Source: Lepisosteus oculatus (Eukaryota; Chordata; Actinopteri; Semionotiformes; Lepisosteidae). From it: a stretch of 64,000 nt of DNA. A program made the translations under genes and the position numbers. Where the stretch lies: contig NC_090711.1 of the NCBI RefSeq assembly GCF_040954835.1, positions 627,501 to 691,500 of the forward strand, written 5' to 3'. Below are positions 1-48,363 of the stretch, one piece after another. The notes beneath the pieces are model-generated. The model was not told where the DNA came from and ran no database searches. It was given only the letters and a program-made list of their open reading frames with translations. Every line of letters begins with the position of its first letter. The first letter of the stretch is position 1.

Positions 1-3000
1 TTTAAAGGTTAAAAACATAAATAATTTAAGAAAAACAGTTTTAAAAAATAAAGTTTTTATTTGTTTTGGAGGCATGTAACACATTCCTCTGATGGAAAAA
101 AAATACTCTGTTCGGATTCGGGTCGGTTAGTCTCTTGACCGACATTGAGAACCGATCTGAACTACATTTTGACAGAACCGTGATTTTCTTTTCCTTTTTT
201 TTAGAAGTTACTCAACTGCTTGTCGATTCTGAAATTTAATTTGTGTTTGAATAAAAGTTTAAAAATATCTGCGCTTCGCCCTAAAATGGTTAGGATTTTC
301 TTCACCACATAGTGAAACGAAATGTAAGAGTTTCTTTTAAGTAATGTTAAATTAATAAGAAATTAAACAGTTTCATTACAGAATATATTATAGTTACATT
401 AAAGTTTTATTACAGAAAATAATTCGAATTAAACTCTTTTTGATATTAAGTTATCTCTTTATTTATATTGAAATAACCTGGATGTTGTGTTTCAGATGAG
501 CTCGAATTTTGTTCCCTTTTTCTGTGCGCTCCAGTAGCTTCTAAGTTTATGTTTTGTCTGGAGTTTGCTGTTCTTAATTTAGGATAAAAATCATTGAATG
601 CGAAAACAAATTATGCTGAGATACTGTTTGTGTGTTTTTTCGTTAAAGACAAATTCTTTAAAACGGGCACAAGTGGCTCAAGAACAGCTCCTAGTTAATC
701 GTACAGCATTTTATTCGAAACCTCACGGAATTCCCTTATCGCAAGTTCAATGTTCAATATTTTAAGACAAGGCGACATTTCCCTAATTCCCGATGAAAGA
801 AACATTAGGCAATCAAATCGTCAAGTTGCAATAAACGTATATTTACATATTATATGAATAATATATTATGTATTATGCACTTCATAATTTTATTCAAACC
901 TAAAACTCGCCTACCGTATTCGTGCACGTCAGTGTTTAATTTTTATGAGTGGTCTCAGTTTAACCTAACGGTTATAATCATACTGCTAATAATTTTAGTT
1001 ATCTCAATTCAGCAATTATTCATCCTGTTTATTTTCGATTCCTTAAAAATTTAATTAGGTCTTTTTTTTCATTGAAATAATATTAAACATAATAGTGATT
1101 GTTTATCGAGAGATTGAAAATTGAACCTCGAAAGTTTCTGCCAGGCGCTACTACATACACCAAATCTTTCCTGAGGGCTTTCAAGTTTTTATATACTACT
1201 CTTAAACTAAAGGGATTTCTGACTATTGCAAATGTAAAAAAGTAAAATGTATCTGACAGTTTCTGCTTTATTCTATTATCCTTGGGAAATTGAACATTTG
1301 TCTTTGCTATACTTTAACAGACCTTAATAACCGTGAGAGCCGAGAGGGAACATTCCAGAAAGGCAATATTATCCGTGCGATTGCAACTGCAGAGTCCGAC
1401 AGGCTCGCCATTTTTAAAGTTTTGAGGTCAGGATTGTTTTCTTCATCGTATAAAGCAGGGTTACCTCACAGTCAAGAAGAACAGCACCAAGAGAGGTTAT
1501 GTGGGTCCGCGCAAGGACTTCTCTCTGCTGCTCCTGCTATTTGGTTTTCATTATAGATAACGGAATCCCAAACTGACGACGGCGAAAACACATTATGCCG
1601 AACGACTAAAGATTTTTTTTAAAAACCGAAAGTTTAGAAACCAAATAAACAGTCTTTTGAGGCAGGGTTCAGTGTGTGATTGTAATGACATGGTTGCAAC
1701 CATTTTCCAAATATCAATTAAGGAGATTATTTACAAAAGCGCTGCCAGAACTCCAGCGATTTGCTGTTTATTTTGCACCGTTTCGAACATCCGGGTTTCA
1801 ATTGTGCACGTATTACACTAGTACTACACACCCAATGAAACATAAAAACCGGCTTTAATTTGAAAACATTTTGCTTGCTGTATTACTTTTTATTTAGTAT
1901 TTGTCGATGCAGAACATCTATGTTAGCATGTGATAATTCTGAGGCATCTACAGACTTCGTCATTGTTACTGACGGCAGGATATGAAGCGTGGCGATACTG
2001 TAGAGAAGTCATGCAAGTGTCCCAGCTGAAACTCGCGGGTGAAATGAGATGTTAAAAAAGAACAACACCAATCAGGAGGTGCAATTCTGAAATAATAATT
2101 GTTATTGGAGCTGAGGAATGGTTCTTCTCTCGAGATAAGTAGGAACAATGCCACTTAATCTCACAATCCCCTCAATTTTGACCAAGCATTTCGCAGGTCA
2201 AAAATATTTTTTCCTTGCTTTCTAGGTTCAGTAGATATATCACGTTGTCATTGAAATTGGAGGAAAATCTGTCCTGTTGGAAATTTCTACAGCTGTGCAA
2301 GGAGAGTGAAGACCCGAAGCAAGAGAAACAGTCAGTCTCGAGTCCTTGTTTCTGGCATTTTTGCATTTCCTATACCTGGCTGTACTAAGAGCTCTGTGCA
2401 GAACCTGTGTCTGCGTCTGCTCGTACCCCTGAAGCACCTGCACAGCAGCCGCACACCTGCAAGGGCTCATGGCCACATGTGGAGCAGGAGAGCAATGGGT
2501 GACTCTTCCCCAGTGGAAGATCTCCGCTTCTATGAGATACAGCTTCTGTGCAGAAAGCAGCTTCTTTTGCAAAGTCCGATCTCATTTGAAATATCGAAGG
2601 AAGATGGGTGTGGATCCGTTTCATCCCAATTCTTCCATTTCTCTTTTGCCTTCGCTCACCTGGATTCATTTATAGACAGAAGTACTTCACGTTTCGTGTA
2701 AATAAGATATATAAGAAGAGGCTGTCCGTATTGTGGCATCTCCCTTCACTTCTGCTCCAGAGCTTCGGCTGTCATGCTGGCATGTTTGTACTGTTCTAGT
2801 GGAGATGAACATCTGAAACACAATTCTGGGCTTGGAGCAGGTGAAATTCTGGCCACTCAGCTTTTCATAGGTTGAATTGTCTTCTCCGATTGTCCCTCAA
2901 AGCCTGCAGCTGTTCCCTCTAGGAGTGGTTTAGTCTGGCTGTTGTTTTCATCGATTTACTGGGCCGGGGACAATCTGTGCTGTGGAGAATCACAGATCTT

Positions 3001-12541: not shown

Positions 12542-15500
12542 TGTAATGGGCTAGCCTCCCGGCCAGGGTCTGCTCCTGCAGTGCATGCTTGTGGAACCTC
12601 GTCTTGGTGACTGCAGGTCTTGTCAAGAATTATGACTATTATTTTTTATTGTTGTTTTTGTATTTCATAATGTTCAGATCTGATGCCATCAGCTGTTCGG
12701 CAGCTCAGGTTTATGGCTACAACTCCTGTACTTCAAGGGCAAAATAAAGACCCCTGGAAGGAAATTATTTCTTTGCAGTTCCAAGATGATCGGTAGATAT
12801 TATAATCAGATCTTGATATTACATGATAACAGACAGTAAAATAAATGCTACTCTTTAACTGAATTTTGAATATGTTAAACAATTTGAAAAGCTACCTAAT
12901 CATACATCTAATGATGTTTTTCCACACATCATAACATTCAGTAGCAGAACTAGGGAAAATCATAACCATTATGTTTATGATAATTTCAGATTGTCAGCAG
13001 GGTGCTGAATTCATAAAACTAAATATCTGAAAATGTGTTTTTCTCCAGATCTCACTTCCTAGTGCTATGCTCAATAAACTCAAACATCTGGTTTTCGAAA
13101 CAGATCATGTTGAAAAAACACAGCTCTTTAATTTGGTTTTGGTCTGAAAGTGAAATGTCTTCCCCATGAATTTGGCTGGATGATGACGTCTGTCCCATGC
13201 TCTGCTGTAAGAGAAGGGATTCCTGAGGGACTCAGTCCGTTTGACAAGCCTGTTTGGAGGACAATGGAAAGTACTTTCTGTTCCAGAGACTCTAAGCTCT
13301 TATTGCCTGACCCAGCTGACCCAGGCTGGTGTGGAGAGGGACTCCTGGGGTTCTCCTCGCTCAGACTCCGCTGCTCTTGTGCACGCGTGGTCACAATGTG
13401 GTGCAATTTCACTAAACAGATGCTTGGATTCCGGGAGCGTGCACACTGCGATCTGAGCAGGAGGCCCAGGCGAGATGATCTGAGAAATGCCAGTGATTAA
13501 CTCTTGGCTGATGGATGTGGTGGGAAAATAATAGTAACTGGGTTTGTAACAAGGGGAGAGATTTGTGACCATCAATTAGACTACAGGAAGCTATAGACTA
13601 CAGAGAATAATTACTTCCTGTAATTTTCCAAGGACAGCTTTCCCCTTGTCATTTCCTCTGCCTTTCTACCTGAGTGCCTGTCGGTGTACCTGTCTGTCTG
13701 CCTGTCTACCTATTCATCCTTTGAGATAAGCATCATCAGTAACAGTAGCAGGAGTTATATTAGCTCTGTTATTGCTGTAGCAATGGGTGGCGTGTCTTGC
13801 AGCATCCTGTAAGATTTTACTCCAGTGTTTACAGTGGATATGTAGTGCTGATGGGGGAGGAGGAGCAGGAGTCCAATCCAGTTGTGCTGTTTGCACTGCC
13901 CTGTTTCCATATAAACTGTGAGCAGCTGTGACTGTGCAGCTGCATCCCAGTGTCAGGAGAAATCACGGAGCTACTGCGCAGGTGCAACACGGTGTCAGGA
14001 GAAATCACAGAGTTACTGCGCAGCTGAAGCCCAGAGTCAGCAGAAATCTCAGAGTGACTGCGCAGCTGCAGCCCAGTGTCAGGAGAAATCACAGAGTGAC
14101 TGCTCAGCTGCAGTTCAGCTCCTGTTGTACAAAACACATGTTCGTGTGAGGCTTCTTTTTAGAAGACAGGAGCAACTAGACCAGGGTGACTCGTTTTCAA
14201 TTTATTTTAGCTTAATAATATGTTATTTGGTTACTTTCTGTTCCACATATGTAATTACTTTGGTCTTTCCCATAAATCTGAAGAATTAATTGCAGCGCAT
14301 TTCTGCCATAAATGTTGGCCACAGGACCCTCTGGCAATTCACGTAAAGGTTTACAAGCCTCCTTTCGGTATTAAAGCATGAAGTTCACATAAAAACTTAA
14401 ACTAACCTGAGGTCCCGGATAAATGATAAGACATAACCACAAGGTCCAGCTGTGCTCCTTAAGAAAGGTTACCCAAAGTGAAGAAGTGTTAGTAAACAAA
14501 TCTGCTTCTGTCAGAGGGCTTCACTGTAATTGGACAAGGCGGCTTGCGAACAGTCTTGGACAAGTGATTTGCCTGCAACGCAGAAGGAGGAAATTAAATT
14601 AAACATCACATTCAGAGGTGTTGTCAGTCTGGAGCAAGGTCTTCGTTGATCTTTGGAGTCTGAAGTTAATTTAGGCTGGCTTGCACTGATTGCAAGTACA
14701 ATTTACAGCTTGTTTACTGTCGCTCTCCACAGGTGTTAAATTGAAGACATGCCGCAGTTCAGAACAGGTCCCATTAAGAAGATCGCAGTTGAACCTGGCT
14801 GATGATCAGAGTTTAAAGGTCAGACTGAAACAGCTGAAGGAAACTTAAGAGAAATGTAAATCAGTGTGGAAGAAAGAGAGAGCTGCTCTGCCATCACAGA
14901 GGCTTAGCAATCACAGGCCCATGAAAGTGCAAAATTGCTCAAGCTGTACTGATACAAACTGCACACAGAGATCTTAGCGAAGCACAAAGCATCCACAGCA
15001 GTATTTTCACAGATTTTGGCTCCTCATTTATTTTCCAAACATGTCTGTAAATGTTTAATAATCAAGCAAGAGATGACATAGTAATGGAAAATTGTAAAAA
15101 TACAATCACATAGATGTTCTTACTCCTCATCAGCTGAAATCAGCTTTTGTAAATTTCAGTTACAAAATAGGGCATAGACCTTCCACTACAGCTTTTCTGT
15201 GGTTCTAGATTTTATCATCCACACACCATCACCTTTTCCTTTTTTGCTAGGTGGCCAGAAACTTATTTTGGTTGGGATAAACCTTATTTATTGTTAATAT
15301 TTAATAATAATGTGAAGCCAGTTGCTGTGCTCTGACCCACAAACTGTGAGAAGTGCTCCTGACCCTTGAACCCAGCGGAAATAAACCAAAGCTCAGAAAT
15401 GGAGCCCCCATTCCTTGTTTCCGTGGAAACAGGGTCAGATCATTAGATAGCTAGGTCCTTACACAGAACCATGGACACCGGTGCAACACAAGAGACAGTA

Positions 15501-40111: not shown

Positions 40112-40855
<744 letters not shown>

Positions 40856-41027: not shown

Positions 41028-41065
<38 letters not shown>

Positions 41066-41066
41066 G
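41028..41066. repeat. (TTG)n microsatellite
   Basis: About 13 TTG units followed by a short GATGAT run, in the probable 5'-UTR intron of tmem74b. Confidence 0.95.
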
Positions 41067-41440
41067 ACGATGATGATGTTGTGATCGATGTTAAATCAGT
41101 GAATTAACTCGATGAGGAAAAAAAAAACCGTTATGAAATGAGATTAAATTCCCCCGATTCGCAGACTCGAATAATATTGTCTGTGTAGGCATCGACTGTC
41201 TCTCACACTGGCGGATCGATTCTGCTAAATATTTCATTTTAAACAGAATGCCGGGTGCACACGGATTTACGGACGTGTGCGGTTGTACTGCTGTGATGAA
41301 TGAGAGGTGTGGAGGTATAAATACTTCACGCACGGTAACTGGTGGCACTTTTCTGGCTGGGTCCCCTGCCCTGCCCGGTGTGAAATCCAGGGCTGTAAAG
41401 TGAGCTGTGATCCGCTGCCTTCCGATGTTGTGTATTATAA

Positions 41441-41499
<59 letters not shown>
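41441..41499. repeat. (AAT)n microsatellite flanking the LTR array
   Basis: About 20 AAT units end exactly where the LTR array begins. A few more AAT units (42630-42638) follow the array, so the element was inserted into this repeat or the repeat grew from its target site. Confidence 0.95.
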
Positions 41500-41501
<2 letters not shown>

Positions 41502-42629
41502 TAACGCTTACGGCCGACAAGCACTGTGTAAGAGCCGGCGTACCAGAGCGGGTGACGTCACCGCCCTTCCCTGTGATAGCAGGACCACAGCTACTGGGCT
41601 GTGGAGAGATCTCTCTTTGGCTCACGGGGCTAGGTCGCTGCAGAGAGACGCGGAAGTCCCGGGTTCGAGCCTCCAGTAGGGATGGGGCCGACCAGATGCG
41701 GCAAGGGCGCCCGCCTGAGCCCCCGTTGCGTTACATTGGTGTCAGAAGCGGGGCGGGATAGCCCTTCGCCGGGGACGGCGATTTAAGCGGGGGAGAGTGT
41801 AACGCTTACGGCCGACAGGCGCTGTGTAAGAGCCGGCGTACCAGAGCGGGTGACGTCACCGCCCTTCCCTGTGATAGCAGGACCACAGCTACTGGGCTGT
41901 AGAGAGATCTCTCTTTGGCTCACGGGGCTAGGTCGCTGCAGAGAGACGCGGAAGTCCCGGGTTCGAGCCCCGGACGGTGCAGGGGCAGACCTAATGCGGC
42001 AAGGGCGCCCGCCCGAGCCCCCGTTGCGTTACATTGGTGTCAGAAGCGGGGCGGGATAGCCCTTCGCCGGGGACGGCGATTTAAGCGGGGGAGAGTGTAA
42101 CGCTTACGGCCGACAAGCACTGTGTAAGAGCCGGCGTACCAGAGCGGGTGACGTCACCGCCCTTCCCTGTGATAGCAGGACCACAGCTACTGGGCTGTGG
42201 AGAGATCTCTCTTTGGCTCACGGGGCTAGGTCGCTGCAGAGAGACGCGGAAGTCCCGGGTTCGAGCCTCCAGTAGGGATGGGGCCGACCAGATGCGGCAA
42301 GGGCGCCCGCCTGAGCCCCCGTTGCGTTACATTGGTGTCAGAAGCGGGGCGGGATAGCCCTTCGCCGGGGACGGCGATTTAAGCGGGGGAGAGTGTAACG
42401 CTTACGGCCGACAGGCGCTGTGTAAGAGCCGGCGTACCAGAGCGGGTGACGTCACCGCCCTTCCCTGTGATAGCAGGACCACAGCTACTGGGCTGTAGAG
42501 AGATCTCTCTTTGGCTCACGGGGCTAGGTCGCTGCAGAGAGACGCGGAAGTCCCGGGTTCGAGCCCCGGACGGTGCAGGGGCCGACCTAATGCGGCAAGG
42601 GCGCCCGCCCGAGCCCCCGTTGCGTTACA
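41500..42629 (+). mobile_element. Tandem miniature LTR element (TRIM-like), 4 LTRs
   Basis: Four 236-base LTR-like units lie at 41500-41735, 41798-42033, 42096-42331 and 42394-42629. They are separated by three 62-base spacers, giving a period of 298. Each LTR starts TGTAACGC and ends GCGTTACA, the standard TG..CA inverted ends. Each spacer begins one base later with TGGTGTCAGAAGCGGG. That is complementary to the 3' end, including CCA, of vertebrate tRNA-Leu, so it is a primer-binding site. The spacer ends in a purine run (GCGGGGGAGAG) just before the next LTR, like a polypurine tract. There is no coding sequence, so the element depended on another element's proteins; a gypsy-type partner is a guess. 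ATAA flanks both sides but lies in the AAT repeat, so target-site duplication is not provable. The copies look young, because two LTR pairs are identical or nearly so. Confidence 0.85.
41613..41672 (+). promoter_or_regulatory. tRNA-like A/B boxes inside LTR (each of 4 units)
   Basis: Within each LTR, TGGCTCACGGGG resembles the Pol III A box (TRGCNNAGYNGG; two mismatches). About 34 bases later GGTTCGAGCC matches the B box (GGTTCGANNCC). In the second and fourth LTRs the B box sits in a perfect five-pair T-arm (CCGGG / TTCGAGC / CCCGG). The first and third LTRs have changed the 3' arm. The spacing is that of a tRNA. Equivalent sites recur every 298 bases. Confidence 0.5.
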
Positions 42630-42946
42630 ATAATAATAACACAGCATCACAGCGTATCAATTATCAATTGCTGTTTTAGCTACACTGCACGTCAGCAAGA
42701 TACAAGTTCCCAAGTCAGGCTCATATTTAGGCGCTGAACATGCTTATTGATAAAGCGGCACAGGACAGTGTTTCTCTTGGGGTCAATATTTATTACCGTT
42801 AATGCGCGTATTGCTTCATTCTGAACCCTTAGAGTGGCGTCTGTCCGGCTGGTGTGGAAATCTGTGTGCGGATTTCGCCAAACACCGTGACAGCTTTTCT
42901 CTCCTCCTCAAGTATCACTTCGTTGAGTTTTAATACAGGGCAGCTG

Positions 42947-47397: not shown

Positions 47398-48099
47398 GTT
47401 AGTACCGGAATCTCGAGGTGTTCAGCTTAAATATCTTTCATTTTCTTTACGGCATATACAATGGTCACTGCAGACGTGTGTTTAACTTGCTCGTGTGTCG
47501 TGTTTGGTTATGCTCAAATATTTGCCCGAAATAATCCCAAACTACCCCTTTATGTTCAGTCAGAAACAAAAAGAAATGGGTTAGAAAGAGTGGTGTTTTT
47601 ATTGAAAGCGGTAGCTTCGGTGTCGTTAAGGTACAGGTTGTATTTTTTCATCACCCACTGCTTGGAAGCAGCTCAAGTTGTCCGGTTTGAGAACAGGAGA
47701 CCCGGAGGATCTGAACGTTTGTGTGCGCTGTCCGCGTTTAAAAACGGGTCTAATTTTATCTCGACGTCTAGCAGAGCACTGGCGGTCTGCAGATGTGGAC
47801 GGGTCCCGGACTGACCTGCGAATAGTGTTCAAATTTGGGGTCAAACTTCGCACTTTAATCCTCGGCCTGAGCTGGGTGTTTAATGCCCCCCCGGGGGTAA
47901 GGCGGCGCAGCCGGGCGGTTCAGAGCCGTAACGTTGTCCTGTTTCTCTCCCGAGGCCTGACCTGATGCTCTTCAGAGCCCCACTGTCCCCTTGCACTCCG
48001 CGGTCGCAGCCGGTGGCGGGCGGTTCCTTCGGCGCTGGCCCGGTTCTGTGGACACTCGTTTCGGCCTCGGTGAGCGTGTCCGGCCCGAAGGGAGACGAG

Positions 48100-48363
48100 A
48101 TGTACTGCCTTCAGTGGCTCCTGCCTGTCCTCCTCATCCCCAAACCCCTCAACCCGGCCCTGTGGTTCAGCCACTCCATGTTCATGGGCTTCTACCTGCT
48201 GAGCTTCCTTCTGGAGAGGAAGCCCTGCACCATCTGCGCCTTGGTCTTCCTCGCCGCCTTGTTCCTCATCTGCTACAGCTGCTGGGGCAACTGCTTCCTG
48301 TACCACTGCAGTGACTCCCCACTGCCCGAGTCTGCACACGACCCCGGCATTGTGGGCTCCTAG
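48100..48363 (+). CDS. blcap: BLCAP, bladder cancer-associated protein
   Basis: 87 codons plus stop, uninterrupted, as in all vertebrates. The protein starts [20 protein letters not shown] and ends [10 protein letters not shown]. From memory of the human sequence only about two C-terminal residues differ (human ends GVVGT), so this is one of the most conserved small membrane proteins. Two membrane segments lie at about 19-39 and 43-63, with Cys-rich surroundings ([12 protein letters not shown]) and an SPLPES motif near the C-terminus. The ATG is chosen by the conserved N-terminus; the longer frame upstream is leader sequence. BLCAP slows growth and promotes apoptosis in mammalian cells, by a mechanism not well settled. 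Its mRNA in mammals is recoded by ADAR at codons 2, 5 and 15; here those codons are TAC, CAG and AAA, so all three target adenosines are present. Confidence 0.99.

Follow-up and report, generated by a model that had tools for sequence, protein, structure and literature searches.

Four long terminal repeats that stand in a row, with little more than a priming site between them, raise the questions of what kind of element built the row, how such an element would be transcribed, and whether it was inserted as a row or became one afterwards. The window is the whole stretch of gar DNA analysed here, 64,000 nucleotides long. At positions 41500-42629 of it, 236-bp LTRs and 62-bp spacers follow each other head to tail on the plus strand as LTR-spacer-LTR-spacer-LTR-spacer-LTR: LTR1 (41500..41735), spacer 1 with its primer-binding site (PBS) and polypurine tract (PPT) (41736..41797), LTR2 (41798..42033), spacer 2 (42034..42095), LTR3 (42096..42331), spacer 3 (42332..42393) and LTR4 (42394..42629). 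The four LTRs and three spacers that the sequence-only reading had drawn here are exact to the base, and Tandem Repeats Finder recovers the identical array (period 298, 3.8 copies, score 2067). Each LTR is bounded by TGTAAC...GTTACA, the three spacers are all identical (3/3), and both termini of the array are complete LTR ends, TG...CA. The earlier count of four LTRs stands, incomplete in that the LTRs are of two types, A (LTR1 and LTR3) and B (LTR2 and LTR4), in A-B-A-B order. In its two-LTR form, the element would measure 534 bp, short and non-coding. Blastn with the four LTRs and three spacers found no further copy in the 64-kb window: outside the array, matches were of 20 bp or less with E-values of 1.8 or worse, and the extra matches inside it were only the array's own short palindromes. 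Exact DNA pattern searches gave 0 matches in viral and genome contig collections, which is expected since the element is vertebrate, and which has no bearing on its copy number.

Each spacer starts with T followed by TGGTGTCAGAAG and ends with AAGCGGGGGAGAG. The PBS, which begins TGGTGTCAGAAGCGGGGC (first of three copies at 41737..41754, plus strand), agrees at 15 of 18 positions, the first 12 of them contiguous, with the 3' end plus CCA of tRNA-Leu-CAA, as against 12/18 at best for the other eight tRNAs compared. The same nine tRNAs serve for the promoter matches below, and we take the PBS to be of the tRNA-Leu type. The PPT AAGCGGGGGAGAG (first of three copies at 41785..41797, plus strand) lies directly 5' of the next TG, abutting LTR2 in the first copy, and carries one C in its purine run. 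A tRNA-Leu PBS and a terminal purine run in each spacer had been read from the sequence beforehand, and both are borne out; that there is nothing else is right for the spacer and wrong for the LTR, which holds Pol III-type boxes and a CRE. ATAA flanks the array on both sides as a putative 4-bp target-site duplication (TSD; left copy 41496..41499, plus strand, right copy 42630-42633). Since the array lies within an (ATA)n tract, close to the 3' end of that tract, the length of the TSD is ambiguous, direct repeats of 4, 7 and 10 bp fitting equally. The proposal that the element is a TRIM is thus upheld by the LTRs, the PBS, the PPT, the lack of a coding region, the exact LTR-end boundaries and the flanking ATAA, with the ambiguous length of the latter as the one reservation.

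Within every LTR, an A box TGGCTCACGGGG (LTR 119-130; 41618..41629 in LTR1) and a B box GGTTCGAGCC(T/C) (LTR 163-173; 41662..41672 in LTR1) occur at tRNA spacing on the plus strand. Among 2000 dinucleotide shuffles, 8 match the combined score that the two boxes have in type B and 73 match that of type A, whose score of 15 is equalled on its own minus strand. Among 530 other stretches of the window, nine score 15, none scores 16 and none reaches the score of type B. Type B also aligns with tRNA-Gly-GCC over 36 nt, reaching the 3' terminus of the tRNA (42542..42577 in LTR4, LTR 149-184, plus strand; 0/1000 shuffles). tRNA-Gly is the best of the nine tRNAs, and shuffles that match as well with any of the nine number 0/1000 for type B and 5/1000 for type A, in which the alignment is shorter. 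In type A, the T arm loses its 3' side, and the sequence after it, to the patch of differences between the two types. Since the box score of type A is weak, the tRNA claim is carried chiefly by type B, together with the joint CRE test described below. Rfam gave no match, tRNA included, at gathering level in the whole window and none at E up to 10 in the array, and ARAGORN found no tRNA. The LTR sequence is, as far as sequence can tell, a putative tRNA-derived promoter and not a tRNA gene; most Helenus elements, the TRIMs discussed below, likewise yield no tRNA gene call according to Kojima 2024 (PMC10886601).

A perfect CRE, TGACGTCA, lies 65 bp upstream of the A box in every LTR (41553..41560 in LTR1, plus strand, with repeats at 41851, 42149 and 42447) and occurs 0 times elsewhere in the window. 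In shuffles of the type B LTR, A and B boxes arose in 81 of 5000 and were accompanied by a correctly spaced CRE (perfect or 7/8 match) in 0 of 5000. These figures are somewhat flattering, as both the thresholds and the interval allowed for the CRE were set after the LTR had been seen. The rest of the window holds two A/B box pairs, neither with a CRE. Such an element is known at about -50 in the Pol III type 2 genes for 7SL, vault RNA, EBER and 4.5SH, and it boosts Pol III transcription of 7SL, EBER2, 4.5SH and 4.5SI, whereas tRNA genes, SINEs and BC200 are described without it and the CRE of adenovirus VAI lies nearer to the start (PMC7279448). If the gar CRE is set at -51/-44, LTR 105 becomes +1, the implied Pol III start, and the two boxes fall at +15 (A) and +59 (B). 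Both LTR types contain two perfect 12-bp palindromes: GGTGACGTCACC encloses the CRE (LTR 52-63), and GAGAGATCTCTC lies at the implied start (LTR 105-116). From the published CRE spacing (PMC7279448), we propose that the second of these, together with the TTT that follows it, forms the R region (LTR 105-119; 41604..41618 in LTR1, plus strand).

This R would be about 15 nt long if transcripts stop at the TTT of the next LTR. TTT is a weak terminator, and read-through transcripts are likely, as no TTTT occurs within the array and the first one beyond it begins at 42674. The arrangement resembles that of the 7SL, vault RNA and EBER genes, with the CRE about 50 bp before the start and the A and B boxes inside, and differs in that those are genes and not retroelement ends (PMC7279448). 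It differs also in its poor TATA-like box: the octamer at -31/-24, GTGATAGC, has 4/8 A/T, and its neighbours reach 5/8, the maximum among the 25 octamers listed. The GC box (CCGCCC at LTR 62, i.e. -43/-38) lies downstream of the CRE, whereas that of 7SL lies upstream (PMC7279448).

Alternatively, the TRIM could be driven by Pol II and the tRNA-like boxes be the relic of a SINE insertion. The CRE and the GC box may also serve as Pol II elements, and a relic would fit with type A, in which the tRNA homology has lost its 3' part; against this, the LTR contains neither TATAAA nor AATAAA, and the geometry of A box, B box and CRE is that of Pol III type 2 genes. We regard Pol II control as unlikely, and put forward tentatively, as somewhat less likely than not, that the LTR carries a full promoter of the vault/7SL style, in which a CRE near -50 precedes tRNA-like A and B boxes and R consists of a palindrome with a weak T-run.

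TRIMs with tRNA-like sequence in the LTR have been described as Helenus (TRIMp3) and are recorded among chordates from coelacanth, sterlet, paddlefish, Cypriniformes, one catfish and milkfish (Kojima 2024, PMC10886601). The remark in the sequence-only reading that TRIM-type elements are much less described in vertebrates is outdated, Helenus having been published from coelacanth, sterlet, paddlefish and ostariophysans. Helenus elements are 311-1263 bp long, leave 4-bp TSDs in animals and, in vertebrates, have a PBS for tRNA-His, Leu or Lys; mobilisation by Gypsy is proposed for those of animals, and their use of Pol III was deduced from sequence and is stated by the author to be unvalidated (PMC10886601). 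The gar array is like them in its A and B boxes within the LTR (clear in type B, weak in type A, where the tRNA-Gly match is the one reached by 5/1000 shuffles), in the PBS and PPT that lie between its LTRs in a short non-coding interior, its 534 bp falling within the published range, and in its tRNA-Leu PBS, which is among the vertebrate Helenus primers. Its ATAA agrees with a 4-bp TSD, although 7 or 10 bp would fit too. Tandem arrays are on record as well, for the zebrafish Helenus family LTR-11_DR (PMC10886601). We assign the array to the Helenus type because it agrees with those sequence traits that could be tested and has a TSD that is consistent, if ambiguous, the likeness being one to published traits. 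A word search of the main text of Kojima 2024 returned no mention of CREB or TATA and no alternating order, and to that extent the CRE and the A-B-A-B order set the gar array apart from the Helenus described there (PMC10886601). The kind of element is thus already known, and the CRE-headed promoter and the order of A and B are the new details.

Other TRIMs share single traits with the array. Plant Cassandra also has a Pol III promoter in its LTR and a short R, of 18 bp (PMC10886601) against the ~15 nt proposed here; its promoter, however, derives from 5S rRNA, whereas the gar LTR gave no Rfam match and has tRNA-like boxes instead. The units of Cassandra arrays are almost identical (PMC7215508), whereas in the gar array two LTR types alternate. 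Wukong of maize and biv-TRIM of bivalves are TRIMs with multi-LTR forms, which are ascribed to recombination, yet they belong to other hosts, and the accounts consulted make no mention of a tRNA-like promoter (PMC4528315, PMC6934838). Tandem LTR elements of kangaroo centromeres are a vertebrate parallel for which recombination between LTRs has been proposed (cited in PMC11899658).

The two LTR types provide markers for the history of the row. LTR1 and LTR3 are identical (0 differences), and a single base separates LTR2 from LTR4. Against type A, LTR4 shows 15 differences and LTR2 shows 16. Nine of the 15 differences are packed into 12 nt (LTR 173-184), a clustering that 0 of 20000 random placements matched and that suggests distinct subfamilies, or a sequence and its copy with a converted patch, for A and B in preference to LTRs aged by single mutations. 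Owing to the alternation, the true repeat is a higher-order unit of 596 bp: at this offset 1 of 534 compared positions differs, as against 47 of 832 at an offset of 298 bp, and the last duplication is recent on that single difference.

Near-identity of this degree could also result from assembly, a shorter array having been falsely duplicated. The units do differ at one base, which speaks against an artefact, and since a simple A-B copy has no outer spacers, a false duplication of 596 bp presupposes an array of no fewer than three LTRs and two spacers. An artefact of this kind is improbable in our judgement.

Reverse transcription places the U3 of the last LTR and the R-U5 of the first at both ends of its product. 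If a tandem transcript or template switching had yielded a four-LTR cDNA that integrated whole, one and the same copy, U3(last)-R-U5(first), should accordingly stand at both outer positions. The outer LTRs of the gar array are of unlike types, LTR1 being A and LTR4 being B at all 15 diagnostic sites, 3 before and 12 after the implied start, and a one-step origin by reverse transcription was rejected because they are unlike on both sides of it. In its favour, concatenated transcripts are reported for Cassandra, with template switching proposed for its arrays (PMC7215508), and the lack of TTTT as far as 42674 would permit multi-LTR transcripts here also. We consider this origin very unlikely, and the element probably did not integrate with all four LTRs in place, given that its outer LTRs, expected to be alike, differ. 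Of the two origins that had been offered from the sequence, unequal exchange between LTRs is hence favoured, and a multi-LTR product made in one step is contradicted. A satellite array with LTR-like features by chance, for which the perfect head-to-tail periodicity and the 596-bp higher-order unit could be cited, is scarcely credible, in view of edges that coincide with exact LTR boundaries (four LTRs to three spacers) and TG...CA ends, a PBS and a PPT in their correct places, a 4-bp flanking repeat, and the presence of one short array only in the window.

The reading that we prefer, at a probability of roughly 0.8, is that a Helenus-type TRIM inserted into the (ATA)n tract that lies upstream of a TMEM74B-like gene, about 0.7 kb away, and was later recombined into a row of four LTRs. 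TFIIIC and TFIIIB on the A and B boxes, aided by CREB/ATF at about -50, would start Pol III near LTR 105, and the transcript would stop weakly at the TTT (117-119) of the downstream LTR, leaving an R of ~15 nt. An autonomous element, probably Gypsy, would lend its enzymes for reverse transcription, which tRNA-Leu would prime, and its integrase would leave 4-bp TSDs. An A-B element would have come first, either from copies of types A and B that recombined or underwent conversion, or from two LTRs that diverged, and at least two unequal exchanges after integration would have turned A-B into A-B-A-B.

A symbol search with exchanges inside LTRs and up to six LTRs found that A-B gives A-B-A-B in two rounds of unequal exchange, as does A-A plus B-B (two rounds, three exchanges); that A-A or B-B alone cannot give it is trivial. 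Within the LTR, types A and B are identical over 79 bp (25-103) and 68 bp (105-172) and over 19-20 bp at the LTR ends. Exchange in the longer inner tracts would leave chimeric LTRs, and none of the four is chimeric; the first exchanges would thus be confined to the 19-20 identical bp at the ends, which is the weak point of this path. A 101-bp stretch common to both types, running from LTR end through spacer to LTR start, would aid exchange only with more than one spacer per array or with spacers in register. Pure LTRs could also be obtained if a cDNA or another copy converted the LTRs or recombined with them. For multi-LTR TRIMs with unlike LTRs, unequal recombination between elements has been proposed (PMC6934838), and recombination likewise for the multi-LTR forms of Wukong (PMC4528315); integration into existing elements is reported in yeast (cited in PMC11899658), and for plant LTR tandems in general the origin was left open by a 2025 paper (PMC11899658).

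The TMEM74B-like frame lies at 40112-40816 on the minus strand (Pfam Neurensin/TMEM74, E 8.5e-8), with its first ATG 696 bp from the array, which stands upstream of it. Between them are two simple repeats, (TTG)13 at 41028-41066 and (ATA)n of 21.7 units at 41437-41500. A BLCAP-like frame lies on the plus strand at 47932-48363 (Pfam BC10, E 1.2e-26); both gene names are presumptive, and the two frames are indicative of a vertebrate. Of the ten frames scanned, eight matched no Pfam family at E 0.1 or better. Elsewhere in the window, a 42-bp minisatellite occupies 13928-14113 (4.4 copies, 84% matches), and two diverged pairs of dispersed repeats, 8516-8586/54035-54105 (70%, direct) and 7825-7891/16847-16913 (75%, inverted), are perhaps old interspersed repeats.

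The two marked LTR types allow the origin of a TRIM array to be read from its sequence. For Helenus, the locus yields a precise prediction of a Pol III promoter, namely a CRE-dependent start near LTR 105 and an R of ~15 nt. If the promoter is as proposed, transcription of the element would respond to CREB/ATF, and the element could evade the p53 repression that silences plain SINEs, as reported for the 7SL gene (PMC7279448). Four CREs would then stand upstream of the TMEM74B-like gene, and together with four predicted Pol III-type promoters near its 5' side they could affect that gene.
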